From contig JADLBD010000117.1 in NCBI GenBank assembly GCA_020847975.1, forward strand, positions 1 to 64,000: a stretch of DNA of 64,000 nucleotides, written 5' to 3'. A model generated the notes under the pieces. It made no database searches, had not been told where the DNA came from, and worked only from the letters and a program-made list of their open reading frames with translations. The number at the start of each line of letters is the position of its first letter. The stretch's first letter is position 1. Shown one piece after another: positions 394-50,924 of this stretch. This stretch comes from Bryobacterales bacterium (GTDB taxonomy: Bacteria > Acidobacteriota > Terriglobia > Bryobacterales > Bryobacteraceae). Position numbers and translations under genes: made by a program.

Positions 394-1743
394 TCAGAAG
401 GACCAGCAGGCACTCGGAATCGATTCCGCACACATGAGGTCTAGAGCATTTTGCATTGCGGAGATGAAGTTCCGCGATCTCATGACTTCCTGCGCGAAAC
501 GCCTCTGCCGCAGGCCCGTGGCGGCTAGGTCCTGCCGCTCAATGAGGGACTTCAGCCGCCCCATCAAGCCCTCGAGAGTCGGAGGATAGCGGAATTCAGA
601 AGGCGCATAGTCGACGATGCCGATGCGTGCAGCGTCATCCGGGACAACCGTCACCATCCCGGCCAGCATGGCCTCCAATGGGGTTATGCCGAAGGTCTCG
701 TACGCCGAAGTGCAGACAAAGATACTCGTTGCGCGGTGCGCGGTCAAGTACTGCATCAGACGCTCGTGGCTCAGGCCTACGGAAATAGTCGTGTTGGGCT
801 TGAGCCGCGCCGAAACCATGTGGAACAACTCCGTCCGGGAGCGCTCATCTTGTTCCCTTCCGGCGAAAATCGCGAGCCGCACTAGCATTCCGCTCTCGAC
901 TAGACCATTGGCCGAGGCGACAAGCTGTGAGAGGTTCTTGAAGGAATCGGCCCGAGCCACGGCGCTGACAAGCCGCACGCACTTATCACGATGCCCATCG
1001 TCCGCTTGGCCTTCGATTTCGGCGCGACCGTTGCCATCGCCGGCGTCATGGAATGGCGGCGAGATCCGAAAGACCCTGGATCGTTGTACGCCCAGCGTAA
1101 GAAGGCATTTTTCCTGCACCGCTGACAGCTCCAAGGCCGCAGCGTGGGATGCACACCGTAATACCCTGAGGCCGGCCGCCTGACTCCTGATGAGATGTTC
1201 GAGCTTGCTCTCGCCGCCCCGAAACGCCTCGACCGCAAACTTTCTCCCGAAAATCCGGCAGACCTCGCTCGCAAACGGCCCGTGATGCGTCACCAGAAAT
1301 GGCCAAGAATGCGGTTGAAACGGAAGCAGCGTATTGGATTGGTGATAAACAATCGGAACGGCCCGACAAAACCTTGGCGACTGCCTGCGGCCAGATCTGC
1401 TCAATACACCGACCGCCGACGCAAGAGCATCCTGCATCACCTCTCTAGGCATGCGGAAATGGAACCGCAGTTGCACTGCGGGAAAGCCAAATGCACGGGT
1501 ATGCACCATTGAAGGACAGGAGGCGCCTTCATCCCGCGCGTATACCAGGAATCCGTCGAACCGGTCGAGCTCCGCTAATCGCCTTGCAGCGGACCGCACA
1601 AAGCCAATGGCCCCTACCGCATGGGAGGCATCCTCCGAGTCCGAAACAAACTTCCGGTTGATGGTGAGCACCATGCTCGAGGGCGAGCAGGCCAACGCGC
1701 CGCCGACCCGCGAAGATCCGGCTCTTTTGGTCTTGGCTGACAT
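394..1743 (-). CDS. GT4-family glycosyltransferase beside the lasso precursor
   Basis: About 449 residues from the ATG at 1743. The frame stays open to an ATG at 1995 that overlaps the PqqD-like gene, but those extra 84 residues look non-coding, so I chose the shorter start; the ATG at 1674 is another option. The C-terminal half has the GT-B/GT4 signature: a loop ending in SVGLSHERLMQYL, then YETFGITPLEAMLAG with the paired glutamates that bind the nucleotide-sugar. The N-terminal half has the VTHHGPFASE stretch common in GT4 acceptor domains. It is the last gene of the leftward precursor / PqqD-like / GT set. It could glycosylate the lasso peptide or belong to unrelated surface-sugar synthesis. 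Family is fairly sure; substrate is unknown. Confidence 0.7.
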   Translation of the reverse strand: MSAKTKRAGSSRVGGALACSPSSMVLTINRKFVSDSEDASHAVGAIGFVRSAARRLAELDRFDGFLVYARDEGASCPSMVHTRAFGFPAVQLRFHFRMPREVMQDALASAVGVLSRSGRRQSPRFCRAVPIVYHQSNTLLPFQPHSWPFLVTHHGPFASEVCRIFGRKFAVEAFRGGESKLEHLIRSQAAGLRVLRCASHAAALELSAVQEKCLLTLGVQRSRVFRISPPFHDAGDGNGRAEIEGQADDGHRDKCVRLVSAVARADSFKNLSQLVASANGLVESGMLVRLAIFAGREQDERSRTELFHMVSARLKPNTTISVGLSHERLMQYLTAHRATSIFVCTSAYETFGITPLEAMLAGMVTVVPDDAARIGIVDYAPSEFRYPPTLEGLMGRLKSLIERQDLAATGLRQRRFAQEVMRSRNFISAMQNALDLMCAESIPSACWSF

Positions 1744-1985
1744 TGATCTCTGCGCGGGCAAACCGATAATTCCGACCAGCGGTCGTGTATGACCAAAAAT
1801 TGCCCACGATAGTGTCTCACGTTTCACACCCCGGCCTGCGTCCGTCGCCCCCGCTGTTTCCGCCGTCCGGCATGATGACCGCGTCTGCCAGACCGATCCA
1901 CCCGACGACCCGATGAAGGGTCCGCGACTTTCATCCAAGCCGCGGATTTCCCGGCCCTCCTGCGCGTCGCCACGGCGTTGGATAA

Positions 1986-2282
1986 CTACTCGCACGCCCC
2001 AAAGGGCTCGACCAGACGCAGCTGTACCAATTGCTCTAGGAAGAACGATAAGTCTCGGCGCAGCCGACTATCGGAAACCGCATGCGTTTTCTTCACCGAC
2101 GCTTCGATCTCACACGTCGAACGGCCCTCTGCCAAGACCAGCCAAATAGAGCTGCCGACTTCGTTGAAGCTGTAGTATCGCCCTGACTCCAGGCTCAAAA
2201 CGACGACTCCCGTGCTGGAAACAAACCACCGGACGGCGGAGGATACCTTCAATCGCGAGATCTCAATCTGATCTGATCGCAC
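1986..2282 (-). CDS. PqqD-like RiPP recognition protein (lasso B1-type), minus-strand copy
   Basis: About 98 residues from a GTG at 2282. The frame is open to an ATG at 2435, but that extension has no family-like sequence. The recognisable body shows the PqqD/RRE fold pattern: a beta hairpin with VVVLSLESGRYYSFNEVG, the conserved hydrophobic IW helix (SSIWLVLAEG), then a helical end with a leucine-rich heptad. In lasso systems the B1 protein binds the leader YxxP region and delivers the precursor to the B2 protease. It lies downstream of the precursor gene on the same strand, which fits that role. A second copy lies on the plus strand at 3035-3289, so either could be the true B1. Start is uncertain; family call is firm. 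Confidence 0.75.
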   Translation of the reverse strand: MRSDQIEISRLKVSSAVRWFVSSTGVVVLSLESGRYYSFNEVGSSIWLVLAEGRSTCEIEASVKKTHAVSDSRLRRDLSFFLEQLVQLRLVEPFGACE

Positions 2283-2502
2283 CCGAGACCCGCTGTCGCG
2301 CTCCAAACACCTACTTGCGGCGTTCGCAAGGAAGCCGGACACCACGCCCCGCCTGCCATTCGGAAGCATCTGAGATGGTAGTTCCGCCCGCAACCCTACC
2401 CATTGCGCGAGACAACACCATTCCCCCGCCACCAAAATGGCGAAGTTTCAAAGCGAGGTGCCCTTGCTCCTCGATGAAATCCCGGATAAGCCGGCGTTCC
2501 GG

Positions 2503-2649
2503 CTATTCCAGAAACGTCTCCTCGTCAGCATCGTGCTTCCAAGCACCGGTGCCGAGTATCAGCTTTTCCGCATCTCCTACTTCTGTAATGGTTGGCGTTT
2601 CATACTCCGGAGGACCTGTCCGGGCGTCTTTCTCGTCGCCGTTTGACAT
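2503..2649 (-). CDS. Lasso peptide precursor (A), 48 residues
   Basis: The ATG at 2649 has a good ribosome site, AAAGGAG, 8 bases upstream, so it is preferred over the in-frame start at 2715. The protein has a leader of 32 residues and a 16-residue predicted core. The leader carries the lasso pattern Y-x-x-P-x-I-x-x-x-G: Tyr16, Pro19, Gly25. The spacing Tyr(-17), Pro(-14), Gly(-8) to the core start matches lariatin-type leaders. This sets the core as GTGAWKHDADEETFLE, residues 33-48, with Gly1 and Asp8 placed for an 8-residue macrolactam and an acidic ADEETFLE tail. Position -2 is Ile rather than the usual Thr. An alternative core starting at Ala36 would put Thr at -2 but breaks the leader spacing. 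It is flanked by two PqqD-like genes and by B2 and C, which makes the identification strong. Confidence 0.85.
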   Translation of the reverse strand: MSNGDEKDARTGPPEYETPTITEVGDAEKLILGTGAWKHDADEETFLE

Positions 2650-2657
2650 GTGCAATT

Positions 2658-2664
2658 CTCCTTT
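2658..2664 (-). promoter_or_regulatory. Ribosome binding site of the lasso precursor
   Basis: AAAGGAG on the minus strand, 8 bases before the ATG at 2649. It decides the start of the precursor and implies strong translation, as expected for a RiPP substrate made in excess. Confidence 0.75.
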
Positions 2665-2693
2665 CGGTGCTGAATTGGATTCCCTGGGATGGA

Positions 2694-2722
2694 AACCTAT
2701 CACAGCCTCCGCCAAATTTCAA
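2694..2722 (-). promoter_or_regulatory. Putative sigma70-like promoter for the lasso precursor
   Basis: On the minus strand TTGAAA (2717-2722) is followed after 17 bases by TAGGTT (2694-2699), preceded by TGA as a possible extended -10. The expected start point gives a leader of roughly 40 bases before the ATG. The -10 match is only partial, so this is a motif-level guess. Confidence 0.35.
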
Positions 2723-3034
2723 GAGCAATGGACAAGAAAATCGCAAAAGAATCGCGTTTTTATTGCCCCGCCGTCGCAGACTGTGGTAGTGTTCGGATGT
2801 TGTCATGGGCAGCGAGGACGCTGTCCACTTGGTTCGACAAAGGTTCGCCCGGCGGAAAACGAAGAAAACATGGCTAACCACGGCTGAATGTCAGGGCCGC
2901 CAAGTAGGGGATGGCTCGTAGACAAGCTGGCGGCGCTCGGGTCGGCAAGCATGGTTCTGTGAAAAGCGCTTCAGATGCGACTGCTGGCAGACCCTTCCAA
3001 CCTGGGCCGTCAGGAGCGTGGAAAGGGTATCTGC

Positions 3035-3289
3035 ATGAAGATCGCGAGTCATATTCGTGTCTCGATGTGCGGCGGCGGTGCCGTTTTGTTTGATATTCAT
3101 CGAGGCAAGATGTTCGACCTGAACTACGCGGCCGCCCAGATTTGGCGCACGCTCGAGAGTGGCGGTTCCGAGGATCAGGCGCTGACGGCGCTCATTGAGA
3201 AATTCCCCGCTGTCGAGCGGGACACTCTGCGGAAGGACGCGAGGGCACTCGTCGCAGAGTTATCGTCAAAAGGGCTACTGGTGGAATGA
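3035..3289 (+). CDS. PqqD-like leader-binding protein (lasso B1)
   Basis: 84 residues from the ATG at 3035, which has a purine-rich GGAAAGGG 8 bases upstream; the in-frame ATG at 2975 lacks one. The sequence is a standalone PqqD/RRE domain: AVLFDIHRGKMFDLNYAAAQIW in two halves (strand-turn-strand, then the helix ending in the conserved Ile-Trp), followed by a helical C-terminus (ARALVAELSSKGLL). In lasso pathways B1 binds the leader and partners the B2 protease. Its stop overlaps the B2 start (ATGA at 3286), so the two are translationally coupled, as B1 and B2 usually are. That makes this copy the more likely true B1, with the minus-strand copy a second recognition element. Confidence 0.85.
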   Translation: MKIASHIRVSMCGGGAVLFDIHRGKMFDLNYAAAQIWRTLESGGSEDQALTALIEKFPAVERDTLRKDARALVAELSSKGLLVE

Positions 3290-3735
3290 TCGACGTCCGT
3301 TGGCGTTTCTCGCGCAGGGGTGCTGAAAGTGGGCCGGAAGACGGCGGAGTGTCTCGGACGCTTTCATATAGCACACTAGCGGCACTCGTGCAGCTTGCTG
3401 TGTTCGCCTCGCTACGCTGGTTCTCGGGATTCGCAGGCGTCCGGCGCTGGGTCACCAGTTGCCCTATCAGGAGCTGCAGACGGCACCCGGACGCCATTAC
3501 GGCAACCTTGCGGGCGGTTGATCGCGCATGTGCCTACTTCCCGGCCAACATGCAATGTTTGGGGCGTGCCGCAATCGCGACCCGCCTGTTGCGACGGCAG
3601 GGCTTCCGTGCTAGGATGGTCGTCGGCGTACAACGGATGCCTTTCGGCGCACACGCCTGGGTGGAGTTGGATGGAGAGCCGGTGTACGGGCTACCCGAAA
3701 GGTATAGTTGCTATGAGGTGATCGATAGGAGCTGA
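3286..3735 (+). CDS. Lasso peptide B2 protein, transglutaminase-like leader protease
   Basis: 149 residues, the usual size for B2. The protein cuts the leader from the lasso precursor together with B1. The papain/transglutaminase-like catalytic triad can be read directly: Cys91 in NMQCLGRA, His123 in GAHAWVEL, and Asp129 a few residues later. The N-terminal third is hydrophobic (YSTLAALVQLAVFASLRW) as in other B2 proteins. It is coupled to B1 by an ATGA overlap, and the cyclase follows after 31 bases. All catalytic residues are present, so it is probably active. Confidence 0.88.
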   Translation: MIDVRWRFSRRGAESGPEDGGVSRTLSYSTLAALVQLAVFASLRWFSGFAGVRRWVTSCPIRSCRRHPDAITATLRAVDRACAYFPANMQCLGRAAIATRLLRRQGFRARMVVGVQRMPFGAHAWVELDGEPVYGLPERYSCYEVIDRS

Positions 3736-3766
3736 GCTACGGTATGTCAGTTACAGGGGAACCCCG

Positions 3767-5734
3767 ATGAGCCCGCATGCTGGCACATACTGTCTCGATT
3801 CAAGCCCGAACGGTACCGCAGGTGAGGGGATCCTGCCGTGGTTGAGCGCCTTGCTCGGTGCCCGGGACCCGGACGAGTGCGTCGGCTATGCTCATGGGCC
3901 TTTTGCGGTCGTCTGCCGTGCTCCTCAACCTCCGTCGCTGATCCGAGACCGGTTGGCTGTCTCTCCAACCCGAGCAATGGTTCTCTGGGATGGCCGTCTC
4001 GATAACCGGGTCTGCCTCGGGGCGCAGCTTCGGGACTCTCTCGGAGATGGGCGCTGCAGCAGCCCTGATATCGTTCTCGCTGCCTACTCGAAGTGGGGGC
4101 GAGACGCGCTTGCGCGACTGGTTGGGGATTTTGCCTTCGTGCTGTGGGGTCCTGATGAGCGCACCGTGCTGCTGGCGCGAGTTTTCACCGGAGTTCGTCC
4201 CCTCTATTACCGTGTTTGTGACGGCCAAGTGCTGTGGTCCTCCGAGTTAGAGGCGTTCTTACGGGCTGGCGAGCACGGATCGGCTTTGGCCATCGATGAC
4301 GAGTATGCGCGAGCCTTTCTCACCGCGAATCCCGACGCTGAACGGACGCCGTACTCGGGCGTGATCGCGGTACCTCCAGGGAAAGGCGTAGTTATTCGAT
4401 TCGGGCGTGTGTTCCACTGTGCCGGCTGGCAGCCGGACGCCGGTGCCACGATCCACTTTAGCAGAGATACAGAGTATCAAGAACAGTTCTTTCTTATATT
4501 CCGCCAGGCGGTGGAGGACCGCTTGCGGGTTGCCGGCGGGGTGTGGTCGGAACTGAGTGGCGGCCTCGATTCGTCCTCGATTGTGTGCATGGCCGACGAT
4601 ATTCTGAGACGTCAATCCGGCTATGCGGACTTCAACACGATTTCGTATCTGTCCGAGCCGATGTCGCCGGGCGATGAAATCGTCTACATGGATGCCGTCG
4701 CAGATCGAATCGGGAATCGCGGTTACCGGCTCTCCGAACGGGACTATCCGGCGTTCTTCCCTGCGGACCCAGTCCCCTTCCTGAGCCGGCCCGTTTCTGT
4801 CGTCGGACGTCACCTAAGAGTCGCTCAAGCGCTCGAAGAGCACGGCGCGAAGATCCTTCTGAGCGGTCATGGCGGTGACGCCATTATGTGGAGTACCACC
4901 CGAATCTGTCCATACTTTGCGGACTTACTTGCGGAGTTTCGCCTGGGCTCGCTCCACAAGGCTCTTGCCGCATACAGTACGTATGGTGCCCGCAGCTATT
5001 GGAACCTGCTCTGGCACGATGCCATCGGTCCGCTCATTTCCGGGCTTCGCCGCCCGCGACTCGCGCCCTGGATCTGCATGCCGCACAGCATGCCTGCGCC
5101 CGCCTCGCCGACGGATACCACACTGCCAAGAGGAAATCGCCCAAGCCAGCAGGCGGCTTATGCACTGCTTCGCGATGCAATCAACGTATGTTGCTTGCAC
5201 CGGGTACGGACTTGCGGACCGGCGGACGCATCCTATCCGTTCCTGGACCGGAGGCTGGTGCAGTTCATGCTCGCAGTTCCGTTCGACCAGAAGTTCAGGC
5301 CCGGCGCGACGAGATGGCTTCACCGCGCGGCGTTGGCGGGTGTGCTGCCAGAGGCCATACGGACCCGAAAGTCGAAGGCCAGCGGTCAAGGATTTGCCTG
5401 CCGATCGATCAATCGTGAGTGGGCTCAACTCCGTGCTCTCTTCGGTGATGAGCCTCGTGCCACCCTGCGCGGCTATGTCAGGGCTTCGCCACTCAATGAG
5501 GCGCTGGAACGCGCCCGCCGCGGCCTTGCCGTGGACAGCCTAGCTTTGATTCGGACGATCGCGATTGAGACGTGGCTGCGGAACGTGGAAACCGGCGCTC
5601 CACGGGTGGTCAGGAATACCGCAAGTGATTCGGTGTGGGCGCGGCTCGGGCCAAGAGTATTGATCGGCAAGGGGTGGGAGAACAGCGGGGAAGCAACGGC
5701 TGGGCCGCAGAGAACGTGGCGATATGTCGAGTGA
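3767..5734 (+). CDS. Lasso cyclase (C), asparagine-synthetase-like macrolactam synthetase
   Basis: 655 residues. It would adenylate the Asp8 side chain of the cleaved core and close the ring onto the Gly1 amine. The N-terminal part resembles the glutaminase domain of class B asparagine synthetases (WDGRLDNR, ALARLVGDFAFVLWG, RPLYYR) but starts MSPHAG with no Cys2. It therefore cannot release ammonia from glutamine, as is normal for lasso cyclases. The synthetase domain has the PP-loop SGGLDSSS near residues 263-270 and the downstream LLSGHGGD motif, then SYPFLDRRLVQF near the C-terminus. Both ATP-binding motifs are intact. It follows B2 and overlaps the methyltransferase by 11 bases. Confidence 0.9.
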   Translation: MSPHAGTYCLDSSPNGTAGEGILPWLSALLGARDPDECVGYAHGPFAVVCRAPQPPSLIRDRLAVSPTRAMVLWDGRLDNRVCLGAQLRDSLGDGRCSSPDIVLAAYSKWGRDALARLVGDFAFVLWGPDERTVLLARVFTGVRPLYYRVCDGQVLWSSELEAFLRAGEHGSALAIDDEYARAFLTANPDAERTPYSGVIAVPPGKGVVIRFGRVFHCAGWQPDAGATIHFSRDTEYQEQFFLIFRQAVEDRLRVAGGVWSELSGGLDSSSIVCMADDILRRQSGYADFNTISYLSEPMSPGDEIVYMDAVADRIGNRGYRLSERDYPAFFPADPVPFLSRPVSVVGRHLRVAQALEEHGAKILLSGHGGDAIMWSTTRICPYFADLLAEFRLGSLHKALAAYSTYGARSYWNLLWHDAIGPLISGLRRPRLAPWICMPHSMPAPASPTDTTLPRGNRPSQQAAYALLRDAINVCCLHRVRTCGPADASYPFLDRRLVQFMLAVPFDQKFRPGATRWLHRAALAGVLPEAIRTRKSKASGQGFACRSINREWAQLRALFGDEPRATLRGYVRASPLNEALERARRGLAVDSLALIRTIAIETWLRNVETGAPRVVRNTASDSVWARLGPRVLIGKGWENSGEATAGPQRTWRYVE

Positions 5735-6590
5735 ACTGAGGGAGTACAATGGTGCATCGTACTATGCCCGCAAGGCGAGCGAGTATCCGGAGTGCCTATG
5801 GGACTATATCGCATCCAAAGCGGCACTCGCGGAGCAACGGATCGCGATTGACCTCGGATGCGGTACCGGCCAACTGGCGATCCCGCTTGCTGCTCGCGGA
5901 ATGAAGGTGATTGCGATCGATCCCTCGGCCGAAATGCTCAAGGAAGGCATCAATCAGGCGTCACAGGATTCCTCGGCCCGGAATGTCAGGTGGCTCCGCG
6001 GGCGGGGAGAAGACCTGTTGACCCTGATACACGATCCTGTGGACTTGGTCCTTTTCGGAAGGTCCTTCCACCTAACAGACAGGCTGTTAATGATTCGCGT
6101 TTGCGAGCAAGTTACCGCTGGGTCGGGCGCAGTCGTCGTGATCACCGGGCGATGGCAGGACGGCAGGCCGACATGGCACGCGGCGCTCGGACAAGTAATT
6201 TCCAGTTTCGAACAACGTCCCCGTTTTATGGACAACCAAAGACCCTCGCCGGTATCGGACGAGGCGATTCTGTCGCAGTCCGAATTCTGTGCGGTCGAAA
6301 AGACCTCCTTTCGGTTTACGATCACGCGGACTCTGGAGGACGTGCTGACATTATCGCTCAGCATCCCGTCCTGTTCGCCGGCTGATTTGGGCGACCGGTG
6401 TGCGGCATTCCAGGCTGCCCTCAGGCGCCGTCTACTCGACGAGTTCCGGGATGGGCCATTTCTGGAGCATCGCATCCTGGACGTGTTATGGGCGCGGAAA
6501 AGCAATCGCCCGTTGTTGCCGGATCAGGCAGCACTTGGGAGAGGAAGGCGATCGTGTTCCAGGATGTGCGCTACGCATTTCGCGCATTGA
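5724..6590 (+). CDS. Class I SAM-dependent methyltransferase in the lasso operon
   Basis: 288 residues. Motif I is clear (IDLGCGTGQLA, near residues 42-52), followed by the acidic end of strand 2 (VIAIDPSAEML) and motif IV-like DLVLFGRSFH. It resembles small-molecule methyltransferases of the UbiE/SmtA type rather than the PIMT-like enzymes known from aspartimide-containing lasso peptides. It overlaps the cyclase gene by 11 bases, so it belongs to the same transcript and may methylate the lasso peptide, for example its C-terminus or a side chain. That role is an inference from position. Its last 37 bases overlap the permease start. Confidence 0.75.
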   Translation: MSSELREYNGASYYARKASEYPECLWDYIASKAALAEQRIAIDLGCGTGQLAIPLAARGMKVIAIDPSAEMLKEGINQASQDSSARNVRWLRGRGEDLLTLIHDPVDLVLFGRSFHLTDRLLMIRVCEQVTAGSGAVVVITGRWQDGRPTWHAALGQVISSFEQRPRFMDNQRPSPVSDEAILSQSEFCAVEKTSFRFTITRTLEDVLTLSLSIPSCSPADLGDRCAAFQAALRRRLLDEFRDGPFLEHRILDVLWARKSNRPLLPDQAALGRGRRSCSRMCATHFAH

Positions 6591-8986
6591 GACGAAGTTG
6601 GGTGTTTGCGACTGCTGCGGTGCTCTCGTTGGCATTGGGAATCGGCGCCACCACTGCAGCCTTCAGTCTTCTGGACGCCGTCCTTCTTCGGCAGTTACCG
6701 GTTCCGGAACCAGAACAGCTCGTGCAGATCGGACCGGCATCAGCTCAAGGGCGTCCGGGACCTGTTTCGACGCTGCTGTTGGATGCGCTGCGTGATGATC
6801 CGACGGTCGCGGGCGTCTGTGGTTTCTGGACCCCGCTGACGACCGTCCAATATGGCGAGGCACCCGTCCCGGTTTCAACGCTAGTATTTACCGAGGACTG
6901 TTTCCGCACGCTGGGGATTGTGCCGGCACTGGGCCGGTTCTTCGGATCGAATGAGAGCCAGAACGAGTTCCCGAATGTCGCGGTCATCAGCTACGACGTC
7001 TGGCAGCGCGAATACGCCGGCAGCCTGGACGTACTTGGAAAGACCCTGCGGATTGAAGGCGTGCCGTGCACCATTATCGGCGTCACCGAGCCGCGCTTCT
7101 CCGGATTGCTGTTGGGATTCCCCGCCAAGGTTATTTTTCCCATGGCCTTGCACAGGCGAACGGCAGCCGATGGCCAGCCATTCTCATGGGTGACCGGATT
7201 TCTGAGGAGGCGCCCGACGGCGACGGCAGGCGACATGCGGGCCCATCTATCGGTGCTGTGGCCCAAGCTTCTGGAAACCACCGTGCCGACGAACTATGCG
7301 GGCGAACAGCGCGAACAGTACCGCCGGCAAAAACTAGTCGTGGTGCCTGCATCCGGCGGCGTGGATTACACCTTGCGCGCGCGGTTCGGAGGGCCGTTGT
7401 ACATTCTCCTTGGGATTAGTGCGCTGGTGCTCCTTTTCTGTTGCGTGAATGTGGCTAATCTGATGCTGGCGCGGGGTGTTGCCCGCGAACGCGAGATCGC
7501 CGTCCGGCTGGCACTCGGCGCCAGGCGCGCGGTAGTGATTCGCCAATTGACGGCAGAAAGCTCGATTTTGGTGATTGCCGGTCTGGCCGCCGGTGTGGCT
7601 GCCGCTCACGCGGGAATCCAACTGCTGTTAGGGGTTTTCCGGGCGAACTACAGCGCATTCGACCTCAAAGCGACTCCAGACGGAAGGGTACTCCTCCTGA
7701 GCAGCGCTGCCGCCACGCTTGCGCTGCTGATTGCGGGCCTTGTACCGGCCATGCGCACCAGCGCCGTCGACAACAGCACCGTCGTGCGTGGGGCCGGCCG
7801 CTCCGTGGCGGGTGGCGGCAGAGGACGTCGGTGGCTCGTCAGCACACAAGTAGCCCTGACCATCATTCTGTTATCTGGCGCGGGCCTGTATGCAGCGGTT
7901 CTCAGGGACCTGCGGACTATGGACCTCGGGTTTCAGGTGTCGCGGCTGCTCACGGTCCAGCTCGCGCTATTGCCAGGTGGAAATCTGCGAGGCAACCCCC
8001 TCGACAGTTACCACCGGGACCTCCTGCGCCGGGTGCGGTTGATGCCTGGCGTGGCCAGTGCCTGCTTGAGCAACACGGCCCCGCTGTTCACGCGAGGCAT
8101 CCCAGGCTCGGTGGAGCGGCCCGGCGGGGAACGCGCGCCTGTCGCCGTAAGCCAGGTGGTCGTGAGTGACAGCTTCTTTGATAGCATGGGGATTCCCCTG
8201 CTCAGCGGTCACGACTTCTGGTCTGGCGCGCGCCCCGGCGACATGGCTGATGTGATTATTAGCAAGCCGCTTGCAGAGAATCTCTTTCCGGACGGCACGG
8301 CTCTGGGCGGCTATTTGCGAGTTCGCAGCGGCGAGCGCTCCCGTAACGCGCGAATCATCGGCGTAGCCGCCGATGCTCGGCTCTTTGGGCCCAAGGCGGA
8401 ACCAGTCCTCGTCGCTTACCTCAACTACTGGCAGGCGCCCGAGTACCAGATGATGCCGGCCCTGCTCGTGCGGACCACAGGGCATGTCGAATCACTCGCT
8501 GACCAGTTGCGGCGGCAGATATTCAGCGAAGGTCGTGAATACATAACATATGCGCGGACGATGGAGATGCAGCGAGACCTGCAATTGGTGCAGGAACGGC
8601 TGCTTGCCGCACTGGCTTCAACCTTCGCCCTGATTGCGCTGGTCCTTGCGGCTGTGGGGTTGTTCGGTTTGCTCACATACTTAGTTAGCAACCGCGCGCC
8701 CGAAATTGGTATCCGTATTGCGCTGGGAGCACGACCAAAGACAGTCATATGGCTCATACTGCGGGAAGCCCTCGTTCTCACGGGGATGGGAATTGCTGCT
8801 GGAATCCCCGTGACGATTGCGCTCCTCCGCGGTAGCTCGCATTTCATCTCGGCGAGCTTTGTACCGGGATTGGTGTTTCTGGGTGGCGCCCTCGTGTCAG
8901 TTGTTGTCGTAACCGTACTTGCGGCGCTGATTCCCGCTCATATTGCGTCACGCCTCAGCGCGATGGAGGCCTTACGACAGCAGTGA
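6554..8986 (+). CDS. Orphan MacB/FtsX-type ABC permease (acidobacterial duplicated type)
   Basis: About 810 residues from a GTG at 6554 preceded by GAGGAAGG with a 5-base gap. The longer reading from 6398 is antisense-like and overlaps the methyltransferase deeply. The protein begins QDVRYAFRALRRS, the typical start of these permeases, then a transmembrane helix, a MacB-type periplasmic domain, FtsX-like helices (LLFCCVNVANLMLARG, REREIAVRLALGARR), a second periplasmic domain, and a final FtsX block with EIGIRIALGARP. Two FtsX modules in one chain mark the duplicated orphan permeases abundant in Acidobacteriota. No ATPase gene is adjacent. It may export or confer immunity to the lasso peptide, since no classical D exporter is present, or be an unrelated insertion. 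Confidence 0.82.
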   Translation: MFQDVRYAFRALRRSWVFATAAVLSLALGIGATTAAFSLLDAVLLRQLPVPEPEQLVQIGPASAQGRPGPVSTLLLDALRDDPTVAGVCGFWTPLTTVQYGEAPVPVSTLVFTEDCFRTLGIVPALGRFFGSNESQNEFPNVAVISYDVWQREYAGSLDVLGKTLRIEGVPCTIIGVTEPRFSGLLLGFPAKVIFPMALHRRTAADGQPFSWVTGFLRRRPTATAGDMRAHLSVLWPKLLETTVPTNYAGEQREQYRRQKLVVVPASGGVDYTLRARFGGPLYILLGISALVLLFCCVNVANLMLARGVAREREIAVRLALGARRAVVIRQLTAESSILVIAGLAAGVAAAHAGIQLLLGVFRANYSAFDLKATPDGRVLLLSSAAATLALLIAGLVPAMRTSAVDNSTVVRGAGRSVAGGGRGRRWLVSTQVALTIILLSGAGLYAAVLRDLRTMDLGFQVSRLLTVQLALLPGGNLRGNPLDSYHRDLLRRVRLMPGVASACLSNTAPLFTRGIPGSVERPGGERAPVAVSQVVVSDSFFDSMGIPLLSGHDFWSGARPGDMADVIISKPLAENLFPDGTALGGYLRVRSGERSRNARIIGVAADARLFGPKAEPVLVAYLNYWQAPEYQMMPALLVRTTGHVESLADQLRRQIFSEGREYITYARTMEMQRDLQLVQERLLAALASTFALIALVLAAVGLFGLLTYLVSNRAPEIGIRIALGARPKTVIWLILREALVLTGMGIAAGIPVTIALLRGSSHFISASFVPGLVFLGGALVSVVVVTVLAALIPAHIASRLSAMEALRQQ

Positions 8987-9038
8987 AACCCCTTAGTTGG
9001 GCCCCGCGGCGGGCAAGCTACCAGAAATGGTCCGGAGT

Positions 9039-9806
9039 ATGCCACATACCTCTTGCATCTTAGCAACAAAGGATAGGCCGCAGTTCCTGGGACAGGCCCT
9101 GAAATACTACCTGAGCCAGACCTATACCGACAGTGAACTCATCATCGTGGATGACAGCGCAACCAGTTGTGCGGCACTCGTTCCACACCTGCCGTCCATC
9201 ACCTACATCTACCTTCCCCAGCCAACGTCTCTCGGAACGAAACTGAACATTGGAATCGAGCGGGCGTCGGGCACCGTGATCCAGAAGCTGGACGACGACG
9301 ATTACTATCATTCGTCGTTTCTCATGAGGACGGTCTCGCGGCTGGACCGGGAGATCTCCGACGATGCCGTCGTGGCAGTGGATCCCCTCCTGGTGCTCAT
9401 CGCCGGCCACGATGCTCTATTTGATGCGGGCGGCGGTTGGTTTGCGGGCGGCACGCTGTGCTTCTATCGAAGTGCGTGGCGCCGGATGCCCTTTCGGGAC
9501 GTGCCCCGGCGCGTGGACGTCTTCTTTCTGGAAGACCATCCGGAGTTCCGCCGGCTCGCTTTGACCACGCCGGAGATCTATATCCTGGTGAGACACGGAC
9601 GTCACACGTGGAACTCCGTCGTGCCGGAGACCGTTGTCCCAGTTGCCAACCCTGGCGGGATCGACGTTACGGAATACTTCCTGACGTGTCCCCGGTACCC
9701 CAGGACCATCGAACAGGTTGTTGGTGTCGAGCACGGTGCATTCTACCGGAGCCTAGCTCAGCACCAGGCCGGGCTGGCAGGTCGCGAGGTCGGCTGTGGC
9801 AGCTAG
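9039..9806 (+). CDS. GT2-family glycosyltransferase
   Basis: 255 residues from the ATG at 9039; the frame opens earlier (8997) but the first 14 residues are not family-like. The GT-A fold is readable: ATKDRPQFLGQAL, LSQTYTDSELIIVDDS, then a DDDDYYHSSF metal-binding DxD-type motif near residue 85. The C-terminal half has the acidic FFLEDHPEF stretch that may hold the catalytic base. It sits between the permease and the ATP-grasp gene, overlapping the latter by 11 bases, so it is probably in the lasso transcript. With the GT4 gene at the other end this gives the cluster two glycosyltransferases. Acceptor and sugar cannot be read. Confidence 0.78.
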   Translation: MPHTSCILATKDRPQFLGQALKYYLSQTYTDSELIIVDDSATSCAALVPHLPSITYIYLPQPTSLGTKLNIGIERASGTVIQKLDDDDYYHSSFLMRTVSRLDREISDDAVVAVDPLLVLIAGHDALFDAGGGWFAGGTLCFYRSAWRRMPFRDVPRRVDVFFLEDHPEFRRLALTTPEIYILVRHGRHTWNSVVPETVVPVANPGGIDVTEYFLTCPRYPRTIEQVVGVEHGAFYRSLAQHQAGLAGREVGCGS

Positions 9807-10959
9807 CGCGAGATCACCGGACGAATTTCGGCATGGCGAATGGGGCGGCCTCATGATGCGCTGGAATTCCGAAGAATTGGCATCGGTCAGTCCATTGATT
9901 GGCGAACTGGACAGCGACCGCAGCCCACGATCCTCCGAACTCGGGCAGCCCGGCATCGTGCTGCGGGCGTCGGAGGCGCAAGCACTGAACGCAGGGTGCT
10001 GCGGACCGAAGGCGCTGATTATCCGGCAATTATACCGGATCATGCAGTTCGATGAATGTCGCCTGTTTCGGCATCGGCTGGAACATAAGTTGGTGCAGGC
10101 CTTAGTCTTACACCACTACTGCGGAGCTGCGGTTCCAGTCACGAGAGGACTGCGACGGGAGCTGTCGGGAAGGGATCCTGCGGCCGCACGCGATTACCTC
10201 GCAACACTGGCCAGCGTGCCGGACGGAATGCTGATCAAAAGGACGCTGGGAAACGGCTCGGGCGAGAGAAAAAGCTTCGCTCTACCGGCTGCGGCATTGG
10301 AGGAACTGGTCCGCACACTGCCGCCTACTGCGCCGGATAGCTCGCTCGACATCCTGCAAGAGCGCGTAGCCATCGCCCAGGAGTACAGGGTGCACACTCT
10401 GGAGGATCGGGTGGTCCCGGATCTTACGTTCAGGCGCTATGGCCAAGGCACCTCTCCGGCGGAGCAGGAGTTGGCAGGCGCCTTTGTCCAGGAGTTACTC
10501 GACAAACTGCCTGCGGGACTGGTTCGGGGCGCCATGTACGCGTGGGATGTGGCCCAGACCGGCGACAAAAAGTTTGCGCTGATCGAGGCCAATCTGGCTG
10601 GCTTTCACCCCGTCTTTCAAGCCGGATTTCAGTGCAGCGGCTTTTTCCTGGGGCCCTGGGGGGCGCCTCTGGTCGTGAGATTGCTGCGGTTCATCGAGCG
10701 CAGATACCACGTGAAGATTGAAATTCAGGTTGACGTAGCCCAGGAGACACCAGAGTGGGAGGTGTATTGGTGGGTTGCTCGCTGGTACGATCTGTTTCGG
10801 CTCGCTGATCGCATTGACGAGATGGCTGCCCTGAGCGGCCAGGTAGGGTCCTTGCGCAAGGGCGGCGCAGAAGTGCGCACACCGGCGGACCACTGTGCCT
10901 ACACGACCCTCCTCGGCAGGTTGCGGAGCATCTCGGAAACCCTGGTGGCACTGGCGTGA
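9796..10959 (+). CDS. ATP-grasp-like protein in the lasso operon
   Basis: Up to 387 residues from a GTG at 9796 that overlaps the GT2 stop; the ATG at 9853 is an alternative start. The middle has the ATP-grasp pattern: a lysine strand MLIKRTLGNGSGERK (glycine-rich loop), the hinge strand DILQERVAIAQEYRVH, and the metal-binding end YAWDVAQTG followed by FALIEANLAG with the conserved Glu and Asn. Enzymes of this fold join a carboxylate to an amine or thiol through an acyl-phosphate. In a RiPP cluster this could add an amino acid or crosslink side chains; in other settings they build small ligands. The next methyltransferase starts in a GTGA overlap. Fold is fairly sure, role unknown. Confidence 0.65.
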   Translation: MAASARSPDEFRHGEWGGLMMRWNSEELASVSPLIGELDSDRSPRSSELGQPGIVLRASEAQALNAGCCGPKALIIRQLYRIMQFDECRLFRHRLEHKLVQALVLHHYCGAAVPVTRGLRRELSGRDPAAARDYLATLASVPDGMLIKRTLGNGSGERKSFALPAAALEELVRTLPPTAPDSSLDILQERVAIAQEYRVHTLEDRVVPDLTFRRYGQGTSPAEQELAGAFVQELLDKLPAGLVRGAMYAWDVAQTGDKKFALIEANLAGFHPVFQAGFQCSGFFLGPWGAPLVVRLLRFIERRYHVKIEIQVDVAQETPEWEVYWWVARWYDLFRLADRIDEMAALSGQVGSLRKGGAEVRTPADHCAYTTLLGRLRSISETLVALA

Positions 10960-11783
10960 GTGGCGATCTCTCAGGGGCCGCGCGGTCGGCTCTGGCGAGC
11001 GCGAGCGCCCCCTGTCAGGTGAAGAACATGGCCGTTAGCACTTCTGACCCGTCGATGGTAGCGCGCACCGGATTGTTGACGTGCGTGTTCTGCGGGTTCG
11101 AAGCCTACCGCTTTTGTTCGTATGGTCTCGACACTGCCGTGTTTGCCGAAAAGCACGTGGTCGGGGGCGGTCGGCGCCCGAACGGGTTATGCCCAGGCTG
11201 TGGCTCGGTCGACCGAGAGCGGCTGGTGTTCCTGTTCCTGGTACGATGCACGCGCGTCTTTCACCAAAGCGGCCTAGCTCTGTTGCATGTGGCTCCGGAG
11301 CCGCTATTGGGATGTGCCCTGCGTTGCTTTGTCGGACGCGGGTACCGGGCCATTGATCTGCAGCCGTCACCTGGTGTGGAAGCCATGGACCTGACGGCGC
11401 TCCAGATGAGTGAAACCTCAATCGACGTCGCGATTTGCAACCACGTGTTCGAGCACATCGAAGAGGACCGCCTGGCGATGCGCGAATTGTTCCGGATCTT
11501 GCGCCCCGGCGGCTGGGCGGTCGTTCAGGTTCCCATCGCCTATGGCATGCGCTGCACCTATGAGGACCGATCTATCCGAAGCCCGGAGGCGCGCACGGTG
11601 GCTTTCGGCCAGCACGATCATGTGCGCATCTACGGCCTTGATTACTTCGAGCGCCTTCGAAGCGTGGAATTCGATGTACGCGTGCTGGAACCTGCGAGGT
11701 TGTTCGGCAACGATGCCATCGAGAGCTTCGCATTGTTGCCGAACGAGAAGTTGATCGTCGTTCAAAAGAGGAAAGCTCCATAG
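10956..11783 (+). CDS. SAM-dependent methyltransferase with N-terminal zinc ribbon
   Basis: Up to 275 residues from a GTG coupled to the ATP-grasp stop (GTGA); the ATG at 11028 gives a shorter form. Two cysteine pairs, CVFC and CPGC, form a likely zinc ribbon in the first 90 residues. The class I methyltransferase fold follows: LLHVAPEPLL as motif I, DVAICNHVFEHIEEDRLAM, and the LFRILRPGGWAVVQVP strand that marks this superfamily. It closes the row B1-B2-C-MT-permease-GT2-ATP-grasp-MT. The target is unknown; a sugar or the peptide are both possible. Confidence 0.72.
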   Translation: MSGDLSGAARSALASASAPCQVKNMAVSTSDPSMVARTGLLTCVFCGFEAYRFCSYGLDTAVFAEKHVVGGGRRPNGLCPGCGSVDRERLVFLFLVRCTRVFHQSGLALLHVAPEPLLGCALRCFVGRGYRAIDLQPSPGVEAMDLTALQMSETSIDVAICNHVFEHIEEDRLAMRELFRILRPGGWAVVQVPIAYGMRCTYEDRSIRSPEARTVAFGQHDHVRIYGLDYFERLRSVEFDVRVLEPARLFGNDAIESFALLPNEKLIVVQKRKAP

Positions 11784-11793: not shown

Positions 11794-13410
11794 GTGACTG
11801 TCGTTTCCCGGACCGCAACTCTGGCCTGCGCTGCGGTCCTAACCTTCGCCAGCGAGGTTCCGCAGGCCCCGCAAGTCGCCCCGGCGGTCGAACAGCCATC
11901 GGTGGTCTTTTCTACCACGGCCCGCCTTGTTCATGTGAACGTAGTCGTGGAAGACAAGCAAGGCCGCCCGATCGCGGACCTGCGGAAGGAGGATTTCGAG
12001 GTTCTGGACAACGGCGTCCCCCAGAGCATCGCTTTCTTCACGGCAGAGCACGCCATCAACCCTGGCAGGCGAGCGGCGGCAGAAAGCGTATTCACAAATC
12101 AACTGCCGGTTGCCACGGGATGGCGGAGTGGTTACTCGGCCATTCTTCTGGATTGGCTAAATACACCCTGGGGAGACAAAGTCTACGCGCGAAGCCAGGC
12201 GCTTCGAATGCTCACTTCGGTTGGAGTGCACGATCAGGTAGCTCTGTATGTCTTGGGCAATGGGCTTCGTGTGGTCCAGGAATTCACTGCTGATACGGTC
12301 GCTCTAGCACAGAAGATTGCTGCCGAGCAGGGTCAAGTGGTAAACGCTCCCGATCCGGAAGTGAACCCCCTGACGGATGCGAGCGTGGGCTTCCTGCCTT
12401 TTCCGGATTTCGGGCCCAGCGGTTACTCTGCGACCCGGCGGGAGGACCACTTCCTTACCGAACGCCGCGTTACCGACACGTTGAAGGCGTTCGAGATGAT
12501 AGCGGCACACCTCGCCGCCATACCCGGCAGGAAGAGCCTGATCTGGGTTTCCGCCGGTTTTCCCCAATCCATTGGCTTCGATATCCCTCCGGCCGGCAAA
12601 CGCCCCGAAGGCTTCGCGGATGCTCGAACATTCAGTCCGGAGTTGAACCGTGCGCTCTCCCGCCTGAACGAAGCCGATGTTTCCGTCTATCCGGTCGACG
12701 CCAGAGGGTTGAGTCCCAACCCTGGCGTCTGGAAAAACATCTCTACCATGCAGGAACTTGCCGGGCGTACCGGCGGAAAGGCATACTACAACCGCAACGA
12801 TCTCGCCCAGGCGATGCGGAGCGCGCTGGATGACGTCCGGGTGAGTTACACGCTCGCATACTATCTGCCGGCGGCCGCCACCCGCAGGGACACTCTTCAC
12901 CACATCCGAATTCGGGTCCACAGGCCGGGAGTAACCGTCCGCCACCGGAGCGAGTATCTGGAGCGTGCGGATGGTGCGACCGTTGCTCCGGCTGAGGCTA
13001 AATCTGAGGTCCGGCAGGCCTGGAGCAACCCCTTGGACTCCACGGCACTGGGCATCAATGCGGAGGCCGTGCGGAGCGGAAATACGTTGGTCATTCAAAT
13101 TGCTTTGGAGGCCAACGCGATTTCACTGACTCGCAAAGATGGCCGGCTGGTTGGCAAACTATCGATAGTTGCGGGGTTCAGAAAAGATGACGGAACTCCG
13201 TTGGGGATAGCCGATTCGAAGTCCCTCGCACTCGCCCTGCGGGAGCATACTTACCAAAAGGTGCTGCAGGAAGGTTTGAAAGCAATGGTGCGGCTCCCCG
13301 TACCGGGGAACGCAGCTTCTGTTCGGCTGCTCGTCCGGGATACGGCCACGAACAAAGTGGGGACTCTCACGATTCCCCTGCAGGCCATTCCGAAACGTGG
13401 TGGAGATTAG
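11794..13410 (+). CDS. VWFA-related acidobacterial secreted protein
   Basis: 538 residues from a GTG at 11794. The N-terminus looks like a signal peptide (ATLACAAVLTFASEV). Next comes the hallmark VHVNVVVEDKQGRPIADLRKEDFEVLDNG block of VWFA-related acidobacterial proteins (two adjacent pieces), then a VWA-like domain with AILLDWLNTPWGD in place of a classic MIDAS DxSxS, IPGRKSLIWVSAGFP, and the DVSVYPVDARGL strand. These proteins are exported and very numerous in Acidobacteriota; their function is not established. It starts 10 bases after the methyltransferase but is probably not part of lasso synthesis. It helps place the organism. Confidence 0.85.
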   Translation: MTVVSRTATLACAAVLTFASEVPQAPQVAPAVEQPSVVFSTTARLVHVNVVVEDKQGRPIADLRKEDFEVLDNGVPQSIAFFTAEHAINPGRRAAAESVFTNQLPVATGWRSGYSAILLDWLNTPWGDKVYARSQALRMLTSVGVHDQVALYVLGNGLRVVQEFTADTVALAQKIAAEQGQVVNAPDPEVNPLTDASVGFLPFPDFGPSGYSATRREDHFLTERRVTDTLKAFEMIAAHLAAIPGRKSLIWVSAGFPQSIGFDIPPAGKRPEGFADARTFSPELNRALSRLNEADVSVYPVDARGLSPNPGVWKNISTMQELAGRTGGKAYYNRNDLAQAMRSALDDVRVSYTLAYYLPAAATRRDTLHHIRIRVHRPGVTVRHRSEYLERADGATVAPAEAKSEVRQAWSNPLDSTALGINAEAVRSGNTLVIQIALEANAISLTRKDGRLVGKLSIVAGFRKDDGTPLGIADSKSLALALREHTYQKVLQEGLKAMVRLPVPGNAASVRLLVRDTATNKVGTLTIPLQAIPKRGGD

Positions 13411-43690: not shown

Positions 43691-44190
43691 GCCGCGACAA
43701 CGCCTCGAGATTCTGCGACCTGGTCAAACGTTTGGCCTCCGGACTCGAGCGTGGCGACGTTGTCCGTGAACGCTCCGTACCTTCGGCAAATTACATCGCA
43801 ATACTTCGGGTCGAGTTCAATTACCCGTGCCTGCCTACCAGTCTTCTCGCAGGCGATCAGCGTCGAGCCAGATCCGGCAAACGGATCGAACACCGTGTCG
43901 CGTGTTTTCGAGGAATTGCGGATCGCTCGCTCAATCAACTCCACCGGCTTCATAGTCGGGTGCAGATCGTTCTTCACCGGCTTCTTCACAAGCCACACGT
44001 CGCCCTGGTCGCGAGCGCCGCACCAGAAGTGATCCGTGCCATCCCGCCAGCCGTAGAGCATCGGCTCGTATTGACGCTGGTAGTCGGCTCGGCCCATGGT
44101 GAAGGTGTTCTTCGCCCAAATGATGAAAGTTGACCAGTGGCCGCCCGCCTCTGTGAAGGCGCGGTACAGCGTGTGCAACTCCGAGCAGGA
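43687..44190 (-). pseudogene. Phage DNA adenine/cytosine-N4 methyltransferase, 5'-truncated
   Basis: The frame runs from about 44190 down to 43687. It encodes the C-terminal half of an N6/N4 methyltransferase of the ParB-linked phage type: SELHTLYRAFTEAGGHWSTF, FIIWAKNTFTMGRADYQRQY, DLHPTMKPVELIERAIRNSS and the SAM-binding FDPFAGSGSTLIACE. The DPPY-type catalytic motif and the N-terminal half are missing. Upstream of about 44190 the frame continues into the antisense of the DUF1998 helicase gene, so the gene was cut there. It cannot be functional in this form unless completed elsewhere. Confidence 0.75.
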
Positions 44191-44191
44191 C

Positions 44192-46096
44192 ATGCAGATA
44201 TTCTGCAAGCGCTGCGGCAAAGTACAGAAGAAAGGCAAGATCGACCACGCGCTGTTCTGTAGCTACCGCGGGCAGGAAGAGAAGGAGCAGGTCGAAAGCG
44301 CCTGCTATCTGTATCGCGAGTTCAATTCCGAAGCGATCCGCATGTTGCTGCCGGTGGCCACGCAGGAAGTGGACCTGAACACGCACTCCTTCCTGGCCGC
44401 TTTGGATCTGGGCCTGCGCAAGTACTTCCATGGAGATCCCGGTCACCTGCTGACCACCACCTACGACGAGCCGATTCCCGGCAGCGACGCGCGCAAGCGC
44501 TACCTGGTGTTGTACGACGGGGTTCCCGGCGGGACCGGCTATCTTAAGGAGTTGATGCGGGAACCGGAGAACCTGATGAAGGTCTTCGAACTCGCGCACG
44601 GTGTCCTGACGAACTGCGAGTGCCGAAACGATCCGGAGAAGGACGGCTGCTATCGCTGCCTGCTGGCGTACCGGGGGCGGCACGATCAGGAGAATACGTC
44701 GCGGTCGGCGGCCATGCGCTTGCTGTCGCAAATCCTGGCGCATCGAGGCGAGCTGAAGAGCACCGAACGGCTCAGCCAGATAAGGCTGAACCGCCTGCTC
44801 GAAAGCGAACTGGAGGCCCGTTTCATCGAGGCATTGCGCAGGACCAGGCCAGGCGAGCCGGAACGGCAGCTTACGAATCAGGTGGTGAACGGCAAACAGG
44901 GCTGGTACCTGCGAACGCCCGGGGGGAGCTACCTCGTGGAGCCGCAGGTTGCCCTGGGGCCCGAGGATGGCGTCAGCGTGCCCTCGATTGCTGACTTCGT
45001 CATCCGGCCGGAACGGCCCGGCGAAGGCGAGTTACCGATTGCAGTTTTCACCGATGGGTTCGAGTATCATGCCGATCCGCAATCCGGCAACATGCGCGTG
45101 GGAATCGACACGGCGCAGCGAATGGCAATTGCGCGGTCTGGCCGCTTCCACGTCTGGTCGCTGACCTGGGACGACGTGGAAAGTCAGTTCCGCGAGCAGC
45201 CCGACAATATGGCCCTACCGGTACCCGGGCACGCCGGCAAGCTGGATCGCGCACTCGGTGTGATAGACCCGGCGAACCGAACGGCTTGGTCGCGTGTTTA
45301 CGAGAAAGGCTCTTTCGAGTGGCTGGTGTTCCGGCTGGATGCGGGACGGTCCTTGAACTGGGGGCAGCATGGGCGGTTATGGCTCGCCGCCATGCTGGAC
45401 GGGCAGAATTGCGATAGCACGGCGCTAGACGCGACGCGTGGTGCTTTGCTCGATGCCCAAAACGCAGAGTGGGCTGAATCCGCGAGCATTCCGCCAGGCA
45501 CCGGCTGGAAGTGCGGCGTGCTGCGCACTGGCTCGCCATTGCTCGCCGCGGGGCTGGTCCGGGCGGATGCCCAGAGACTCCGGCAGATGGAAGGCTTGAG
45601 CGCCACCTTGCGACTCTTCGACGAAGCGGCCTCAGCTGACCGGACGGCCTGGAAGCGGACATGGCGTGAATGGCTGCGGCTGTTCAATATCGTGCAATTC
45701 GCCAACGCTACAGAGTTCGTTGCCACCACCGGGCTGCGTGAGGGACTCTATGGAAGCCTGTTGGGCGTCGAGGTTGCCGGGGTCCGCGAACGGGCGGCTG
45801 GTGGTCTCGCCGCACTGGTCGCCGATGTGGACATAAGTCTACGCCCGCTGGTACAAGCGGTGGCGGCGGCCGGGCGCACGTCGCCTACGCCGGGCTTCGA
45901 GCTCGTCGGCGGCGACGGGGCGATAGCCGGGACGGCCGAGCTGGCGTGGGAAGGCGCCAAGATCGCGGTCCTCATGGACCATGAGGTCGAGTATCTGGAG
46001 CGGTTTGTCGGGCAGGGCTGGACCGTGTACGTAGCGGCTGCGATGGCCGAGTGGCAAGACAGCCTGATCGGTAGCCTGCCTGGAGGAGACCTATGA
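44192..46096 (+). pseudogene. DUF1998 DEAD/DEAH helicase of a candidate defence locus, 5'-truncated
   Basis: About 634 residues remain, from the ATG at 44192 to the stop coupled with the UvrD gene. This is only the C-terminal part. It has a zinc-like CKRCGKVQ...C element, the phrase CYLYREFNSEAIRMLLPV, and the DUF1998 cysteine cluster CECRNDPEKDGCYRCLLAYR near residues 142-161. A C-terminal module with SIADFVIRPERPGEGELPIA followed by VFTDGFEYHA looks like a Vsr or DUF559-type nuclease fold. The helicase motor domains are absent because phage sequence starts at 44190. DUF1998 helicases occur in DISARM, Druantia and Dpd systems, but this neighbourhood is not one of those. Confidence 0.72.
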
Positions 46097-48222: not shown

Positions 48223-48223
48223 G

Positions 48224-50890: not shown

Positions 50891-50924
50891 CAGGCTACTC
50901 TTGGATGCGGCATAGTCGCTCAAT

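Follow-up and report, generated by a model that had tools for sequence, protein, structure and literature searches.

A divergent lasso-peptide locus with candidate glycosyltransferase and methyltransferase tailoring genes in a Bryobacterales bacterium

The available part of a review (PMC9266682) describes one case of a sugar-bearing lasso peptide, pseudomycoidin (psm), to which hexoses are added via an enzyme of its cluster; there a kinase and a nucleotidyltransferase-like protein act on a C-terminal Ser. The same part of that source holds lassomycin-like clusters with the O-methyltransferase StspM. The bsf cluster of Bradymonas sediminis, as far as the accessible portion of its description goes (PMC10368454), has split B1 and B2 proteins, a YxxPx(L/I) leader with Ile at -2, a Gly1-Asp8 core starting Gly-Thr and separate tailoring genes. 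The locus described here resembles bsf in each of these respects, the ring by prediction. It lies in the first 11.8 kb of what we call the window, the whole stretch of 64,000 nucleotides that was analyzed (positions 1 to 64,000 of contig JADLBD010000117.1, Bryobacterales assembly GCA_020847975.1). Its assignment as a divergent Ile(-2) class II (no cysteine) lasso-peptide locus is well supported. More tentatively, at a little under an even chance, we propose that its product is a lasso peptide that receives a sugar from a GT4 family glycosyltransferase guided by an RRE and a methyl group from a class I methyltransferase, MT1.

The precursor, a second PqqD protein (PqqD2) and GT4 lie on the minus strand. 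Eight genes follow on the plus strand in the order B1, B2, C, MT1, ADOP permease, GT2, ATP-grasp and MT2, and beyond them comes an acidobacterial VWA gene. Every named gene is an open reading frame (ORF) with a family match, based on the ORF list and Pfam and NCBIfam profiles. The gene content given in the initial annotation was borne out on both arms: the precursor, the two PqqD-like proteins, the B2 with Cys, His and Asp, the PP-loop cyclase, the downstream methyltransferases, permease, GT2 and ATP-grasp, and GT4 on the other arm. Feature ends are those of the longest ORF where so marked, likelier starts having been assessed separately. The features on which the proposal depends are as follows.

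2503..2649, minus strand: lasso precursor gene, 48 amino acids, ATG at 2649, with GAAAGGAG upstream of the ATG
2506..2553, minus strand: predicted core GTGAWKHDADEETFLE, ring Gly1-Asp8 predicted
2975..3289, plus strand: B1 (PqqD/RRE), longest ORF, PF05402 8.5e-16
3286..3735, plus strand: B2 leader peptidase, NF033537 72.4 bits (cut-off 33)
3767..5734, plus strand: C, lasso cyclase, PF00733 3.5e-33, PP-loop SGGLDSS
1986..2435, minus strand: PqqD2, second PqqD/RRE, longest ORF, PF05402 2e-11, likely GTG start at 2282
394..1995, minus strand: GT4 glycosyltransferase, longest ORF, PF00534 E 1.5e-10, likelier start near 1743
5724..6590, plus strand: MT1, class I methyltransferase, PF13649 1.4e-12, overlapping the end of C by 11 nt

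The precursor reads MSNGDEKDARTGPPEYETPTITEVGDAEKLIL followed by GTGAWKHDADEETFLE, with the proposed cut between the two. The leader ends in YETPTITEVGDAEKLIL, which places Y at -17, P at -14, I at -12, G at -8 and I at -2; it thus has the YxxPx(L/I) form, with Ile or Val at -2 and Leu or Ile at -12, and is followed by Gly1 and an Asp or Glu at core positions 7-9, here Asp8. Thr2 and Thr13 are the sole hydroxyl residues of the core, which has neither cysteine nor Ser, and its tail, ADEETFLE, is acid-rich. The calculated mass of the 16-residue lasso is 1787.787 ([M+H]+). A strong Shine-Dalgarno-like sequence precedes the gene. The precursor pattern, which joins the leader spacing to Gly1 and an Asp/Glu at 7-9 and was defined with the precursor already in view, has a single occurrence in the first 14 kb, which is also the only one in the full 64 kb, and appears in 0 of 400 dinucleotide-shuffled versions of those 14 kb. 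BsfA has the same leader spacing, its cut after the Ile(-2) leader has been demonstrated in vitro, and Ile/Val(-2) leaders are reported for Acidobacteriaceae (PMC10368454, available portion). At the precursor stop codon there is a perfect 6-bp hairpin, AGCCGG-AACG-CCGGCT (window 2489-2504, minus strand), with no T tract, which is perhaps an attenuator between the precursor and PqqD2.

B1 falls among B1 proteins in a midpoint-rooted FastTree phylogeny of PqqD proteins, with modest support (0.70-0.72). B2 carries the motifs CLGRA and HAWVELDG, with the Cys, His and Asp of a transglutaminase-type Cys protease, and is the sole B2 match of the assembled genome. C, with the motifs SGGLDSS and LSGHGGD, is an asparagine-synthetase-like macrolactam synthetase with a PP-loop, and its best NCBIfam match is the lasso cyclase model NF033535 (3.7e-67, 227 bits, under the 525-bit cut-off). 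Relatives of C at E <= 1e-30 were found in 50 of 299 genomes of the same class, the window's own included; two others belong to the same family, and the best-scoring class relative is 35% identical. No cyclase relative was found in viral_contigs.

Evidence that tailoring genes belong to the locus comes from both arms. The PqqD matches of the genome (E<=0.001) are just two, B1 and PqqD2, one on each arm, and PqqD2 sits between the precursor and GT4, all on one strand. As both PqqD proteins and the only B2 are encoded here, the assembled genome has no other PqqD/B2 pathway for PqqD2 to serve. GT4 carries the E-x7-E motif ETFGITPLE, ends 393 bp from the contig end and, at E<=1e-15, is found in its own genome only (0 of 298 other class genomes). 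MT1 has the motif DLGCGTG and overlaps C; its relatives (28-31% identity) occur in 4 of the 298 at E <= 1e-15. Together with the GT4/PqqD pairing in related loci described below, the uniqueness of the PqqD proteins and the overlap of MT1 with C argue that part of the set belongs to the lasso locus. A B1 protein is reported to speed up a tailoring kinase (PMC10368454, available portion), and RREs fused to glycosyltransferases are reported in the accessible part of PMC12710340.

Under this proposal, B1 would bind the leader at YxxPxI, B2 would cleave on the C-terminal side of Leu(-1), next to Ile(-2), and C would close the ring by linking the amine of Gly1 with the side chain of Asp8, to yield a lasso of 16 residues. 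PqqD2 would present the precursor or the peptide to GT4, which would put a sugar on a hydroxyl residue (Thr2 or Thr13), and MT1 would methylate the peptide. Further additions may come from GT2 (a sugar), from the R2K ATP-grasp (an amino acid, attached at the acidic tail or the C-terminus) and from MT2 (a methyl group). The product so envisaged is like pseudomycoidin in being a hexose-bearing or, more broadly, sugar-bearing lasso; unlike psm, the window has a core without Ser and a cluster with GT4. The presence of MT1 parallels that of StspM at the level of gene content. The bsf cluster differs from the window by its kinase, nucleotidyltransferase and ABC exporter (PMC10368454, available portion), and the window from bsf by its second PqqD, GT4, MT1 and, as unproven members, GT2, ATP-grasp and MT2. 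No kinase (HPr-kinase-like) or nucleotidyltransferase of the psm or bsf type was matched among the ten window proteins scanned, on a contig whose left side is cut.

How widely this gene set is shared was assessed in two collections: the best 78 of 172 confirmed cyclase relatives from a species-genome scan with an alignment of 11 cyclases (related loci), and 36 loci from genomes of the class (class loci), the two sharing contigs. Three of the 78 are non-Acidobacteriota by title (L083, L143 and L148); the remainder we take to be Acidobacteriota, some by their genus. By tblastn (E < 0.01), C is matched in 78, B2 in 75, B1 in 37 and PqqD2 in 31 of the related loci. The leader spacing recurs in 42 of these 78 loci, at least three of which (L087, L098, L126) read as chance, and the precursor itself has a tblastn relative in one (L123, E 0.002); by eye, the most similar leaders are those of the Bryobacterales-labelled contigs L123 and L135. 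Relatives of GT4, MT1, GT2, ATP-grasp or MT2 are found in 0 of the 78 related loci, 29 of which are shorter than 15 kb, so that absences in those are weak evidence, and relatives of these five or of ADOP in 0 of the 36 class loci at E < 0.05. The same gene order in other Acidobacteriota, which the initial annotation had suggested seeking, was thus not found in either collection by tblastn. Its description of the set as unusual is upheld in that no locus has the same set, and, among the papers listed in a literature search on lasso peptides, no title or opening of an abstract describes it. The same result is half of what the annotation said would count against its reading, namely homologous clusters that lack the later genes; as to the other half, GT2 and MT2 relatives do lie elsewhere, with no clear surface-sugar operons on the stretches examined.

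The class loci have recurring neighbours of their own: an isopeptidase-like S9 protein in 29 of 36, a TonB-type outer-membrane protein in 28, an anti-sigma-like protein in 21 (36 bits against a cut-off of 100), a sigma factor in 18 and a second S9 peptidase in 13. One isopeptidase-like protein that was scanned scored 186.7 bits with the Atxe2 model, under its 400-bit cut-off. Such isopeptidase-type Acidobacteriota loci are like the window in B1, B2, C and I/V(-2) precursors and unlike it in their isopeptidase-like, TonB-type outer-membrane, sigma and anti-sigma-like genes. The window is therefore not a cluster of the isopeptidase/TonB type as far as the window, contig positions 60-80 kb and a cut left side allow, since neither the isopeptidase-like and outer-membrane proteins nor the S9 and ABC proteins are matched there. 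No protein of the sigma or anti-sigma clusters lies within the first 13.5 kb, the part tested, and the genome holds no isopeptidase over the cut-off, with 81 weak matches.

The absence of matches there to the ABC exporter and isopeptidase-like protein of the related loci could also mean that the cluster is decayed or silent and gives no product, in keeping with the bsf cluster, which yielded no lasso peptide in several hosts (PMC10368454, available portion). Against this, the frames are open, the motifs are present and the precursor has its strong Shine-Dalgarno-like sequence, and we consider this explanation extremely improbable.

A parallel to the proposed glycosylation is found in seven of the 78 related loci (L084, L087, L089, L094, L096, L104 and L105, from six metagenome-assembled genomes), which carry a GT4; the count is a lower bound because the queries came from the class loci and the window and did not span all glycosyltransferase families. 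Like the window, they combine a lasso core including B2 with glycosyltransferases, and a PqqD lies beside a GT4 in all seven. GT8 occurs in five, and GH92 with GH127 in two. Two or more PqqD matches are present in 5 of the 7, compared with 3 of the 42 remaining loci that reach 15 kb (Fisher p 5.5e-4), the 49 loci of that length being those used for the PqqD count; the p value overstates the case because the GT4-bearing loci are related to each other. Unlike the window, these loci mostly have two cyclases, unrelated GT4s and other precursors (MKYETPEL...GYADWE), and no relative of MT1, GT2, ATP-grasp or MT2. As the GT4s are unrelated, the shared pairing of GT4 with PqqD is a likeness of gene arrangement and not one of common descent.

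The class loci L038, L040, L043, L045, L049, L050 and L053 lie on the same contigs as these seven. Several precursor copies are present, of the form MKYETPEL-TALTA...AIQ...GYADWE. With the usual cut, most such cores would lack Asp/Glu at positions 7-9, an exception being one L053 copy with Asp9, and their first acidic residue is frequently found at 11-16. These loci possibly make lasso-like peptides that bear sugars and have another type of ring. L087 encodes three PqqD proteins of 413-443 amino acids (1679-5588), of which two give a further, partial PqqD match, and L053 encodes at 1377-2663 a protein related to the long PqqDs of L087, with no Pfam match except PqqD. A 165-residue frame of L053 (833-1327) clusters with an AraC-type regulator family, and its start resembles a lasso leader (YSRPELLYLGHAMELIR).

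Several findings weigh against a lasso peptide glycosylated through PqqD2 and GT4 and methylated by MT1. The precursor scores 17.7 bits with NF033521, slightly below the 19-bit cut-off. The distance from the precursor stop to the likely PqqD2 start at 2282 is about 220 nt, and PqqD2 and GT4 overlap only with the longest GT4 frame, a start near 1743 leaving a gap of about 240 nt; co-transcription of the three genes is therefore not certain. In the PqqD tree, PqqD2 falls outside the B1 group and not inside the group linked to glycosyltransferases, with weak support. Its grouping with the glycosyltransferase-linked PqqDs plus fused B proteins has a support of 0.865 with 16 members and 0.097 with 14 (L075 and L077 removed), and its pairing with the fused B of L083 has 0.745. 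When L084 and L096 were read further out (L192, L193), each still held a single PqqD, beside the GT4, which shows that loci of this sort do not always include a second RRE. The window GT4 is not recognizably related to the GT4s there at E 1e-4, and as no relative shares GT4 or MT1, the neighbourhood is not proven to be conserved. A promoter and terminator scan for operon edges gave none above chance (4 vs 3.9 and 14 vs 10.9). Statements about what occurs only in this genome are limited by an assembly that is 89% complete with 7% contamination. A separate candidate interpretation, that PqqD2 is an orthologue of the glycosyltransferase-linked PqqDs, is not supported, as the tree puts PqqD2 outside that group.

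The position of PqqD2 outside the B1 group also bears on another explanation, in which PqqD2 and GT4 serve a different peptide pathway, the other genes of which would be located past the end of the contig. The contig (80,687 bp) starts at window base 1, which cuts the left arm and leaves room for such genes. However, with only two PqqD matches and one B2 match in the genome, and the precursor gene upstream of PqqD2 on the same strand, this pathway is highly improbable.

The genes downstream of MT1 are less readily assigned.

6554..8986, plus strand: ADOP family permease, TIGR03434 642.5 bits (cut-off 622.3)
9039..9806 (longest ORF from 8997), plus strand: GT2 glycosyltransferase, PF00535 6.2e-14
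9853..10959 (longest ORF from 9796), plus strand: R2K-clade ATP-grasp, R2K_2 PF18299 27.6 bits (cut-off 26.2)
11028..11783 (longest ORF from 10956), plus strand: MT2, methyltransferase, PF08241 1.4e-10
11794-13410, plus strand: acidobacterial VWA gene, starting 10 nt after MT2

The initial annotation had described these genes as overlapping or closely spaced. The overlaps that stand are B1 with B2 (4 nt) and C with MT1 (11 nt), and a start of ADOP within MT1 is plausible. Several others vanish, as they came from the choice of the longest ORF: with the likelier ATG starts there are 52 nt before GT2, 46 before ATP-grasp and 68 before MT2. As the VWA gene begins only 10 nt past MT2, spacing does not mark the right edge of the cluster.

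ADOP membership in the lasso cluster is doubtful, and the gene is probably incidental. The genome has 54 TIGR03434 matches, 22 of them above the cut-off. An ADOP relative is found in one of the 78 related loci (L146), and others lie near the extended L084 and L096 loci (L192, L193). A role as lasso exporter is unsupported, given the single related locus with one and the abundance of the family in this genome. GT2, with the motif DDDD, has matches at E <= 1e-10 in 14 of the 298 other class genomes. The closest three are 47-50% identical and of the same family, and on their stretches no lasso gene was matched; beside each lies a further GT2-like gene (identified by scan for L179 and by eye for L180 and L181), and a BNR/sortilin-type protein lies nearby in L179 and, by eye, in L180. 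MT2 has two CxxC pairs and HVAPE but not a classical first methyltransferase motif, and relatives at E <= 1e-10 occur in 7 of the 298. Five stretches with MT2 relatives, one of only 3.5 kb, have no lasso gene match, the only other window gene matched being one ADOP fragment. Given the matches elsewhere in the class and the many ADOPs in this genome, GT2, MT2 and ADOP seem to represent families that this lineage uses more broadly, and membership of GT2 and MT2 in the lasso cluster is unproven.

These observations are what a plain lasso peptide would lead one to expect, made by A-B1-B2-C, perhaps with MT1, with ADOP, GT2, ATP-grasp, MT2 and VWA as an unrelated envelope or housekeeping run that lies downstream by chance and GT4 as another unrelated gene. 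The 0 of 78 and 0 of 36 counts, the 22 above-cut-off ADOP matches, and the GT2 and MT2 relatives away from lasso genes all favour it. It also gains, at the expense of glycosylation through GT4, from the likelier starts that open gaps between precursor, PqqD2 and GT4, the distance from GT4 to PqqD2 hinging on the GT4 start. However, MT1 overlaps C, and PqqD2, the genome's sole PqqD match apart from B1, adjoins GT4. GT4 (E<=1e-15) and ATP-grasp are moreover rarer than lasso cyclases among the sampled class genomes, so that joint acquisition fits better than chance. We therefore regard a product of the core enzymes alone as somewhat unlikely, and retain the GT4- and MT1-modified lasso as the preferred reading.

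The ATP-grasp is of interest for what it might add. Regular expressions find IKR, GNGSGERK, EYR and EAN, so that the two RAGNYA lysines, ExR and ExN of R2K are present, the motifs being assigned by eye to those in the available part of PMC4431377. The PF18299 match covers a short stretch and is barely over the cut-off, and a single-sequence model (pLDDT 37.9, pTM 0.27) is too poor to read the fold. In that part of PMC4431377, R2K belongs to an assemblage forming peptide-like bonds, peptide ligation is predicted, and the targets of R2K.2 are called elusive. R2K_2 at E<=1e-5 occurs in one of 200 class genomes, the window's own, and in 0 of the 199 others. A search with the ATP-grasp was positive in 3 of 299 class genomes, one being its own; the other two matches are partial (<85 residues, E 1.6e-4 and 5.2e-4) and were treated as chance. 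Pattern scans of genome_contigs and viral_contigs, which detect close relatives only, gave stretches and no confirmed relative; plasmids gave none, and PDB sequences gave chance matches only (E 0.85 and above). These collections and the class genomes were those covered. Membership of the ATP-grasp in the lasso cluster is unproven. As the core tail ADEETFLE offers carboxylates, ligation onto it is conceivable from the sequence.

The initial annotation took the peptide to be glycosylated, methylated or ligated to another unit. Glycosylation by GT4 with PqqD2 and methylation by MT1 are plausible and have the most support among the tailoring steps, GT2, ATP-grasp and MT2 may take part, and ligation to another unit is possible, based on the ATP-grasp clade (PMC4431377, available part) and gene position. 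In the fullest version the entire set acts, with GT4 and GT2 glycosylating, MT1 and MT2 methylating and the ATP-grasp ligating an amino acid or peptide. The one-strand run with short gaps, the acid-rich tail, the R2K_2 match confined to this genome among 200 of the class and the retained motifs of a predicted peptide ligase clade (PMC4431377, in part) are in line with it. Yet no synteny was found in the 78 and 36 loci, ADOP breaks the run, the VWA gene is equally close, and the GT2 and MT2 relatives in the class lie away from lasso genes. MT2 is also of a zinc-ribbon type known from surface-sugar clusters. Action of the whole set is thus unlikely. A related division of labour, in which B1 serves cutting and cyclization, PqqD2 serves GT4, the ATP-grasp extends the tail and methyltransferases cap it, is quite unlikely. 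As far as searched, the literature on lasso peptides with ATP-grasp holds no precedent for the ligase of such a glycosylated, peptide-extended lasso.

An Rfam scan of 1-16 kb of the window gave no match at gathering score. A prophage on the minus strand (window 14123-41102) adjoins the VWA gene downstream of the cluster, with strong PHROG matches to terminase large subunit, portal and major head proteins and weaker ones to tail or fibre proteins. At 44096-58246 lies a defence-like island. It encodes a DrmD-like helicase (947.6 bits against a PADLOC DrmD model) and a UvrD-type helicase, together with one protein that weakly matches DruE and two large ones that weakly match TmtA.

Should only the core enzymes be active, the locus would remain a divergent lasso cluster of the Ile(-2) kind. 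If the ATP-grasp acts too, the R2K.2 family would gain a substrate. If PqqD2 does guide GT4, it would be a tailoring-dedicated RRE in lasso biosynthesis and offer a route to sugar-bearing lasso peptides, and the link between PqqD and glycosyltransferases in other Acidobacteriota lasso loci makes this idea directly testable.

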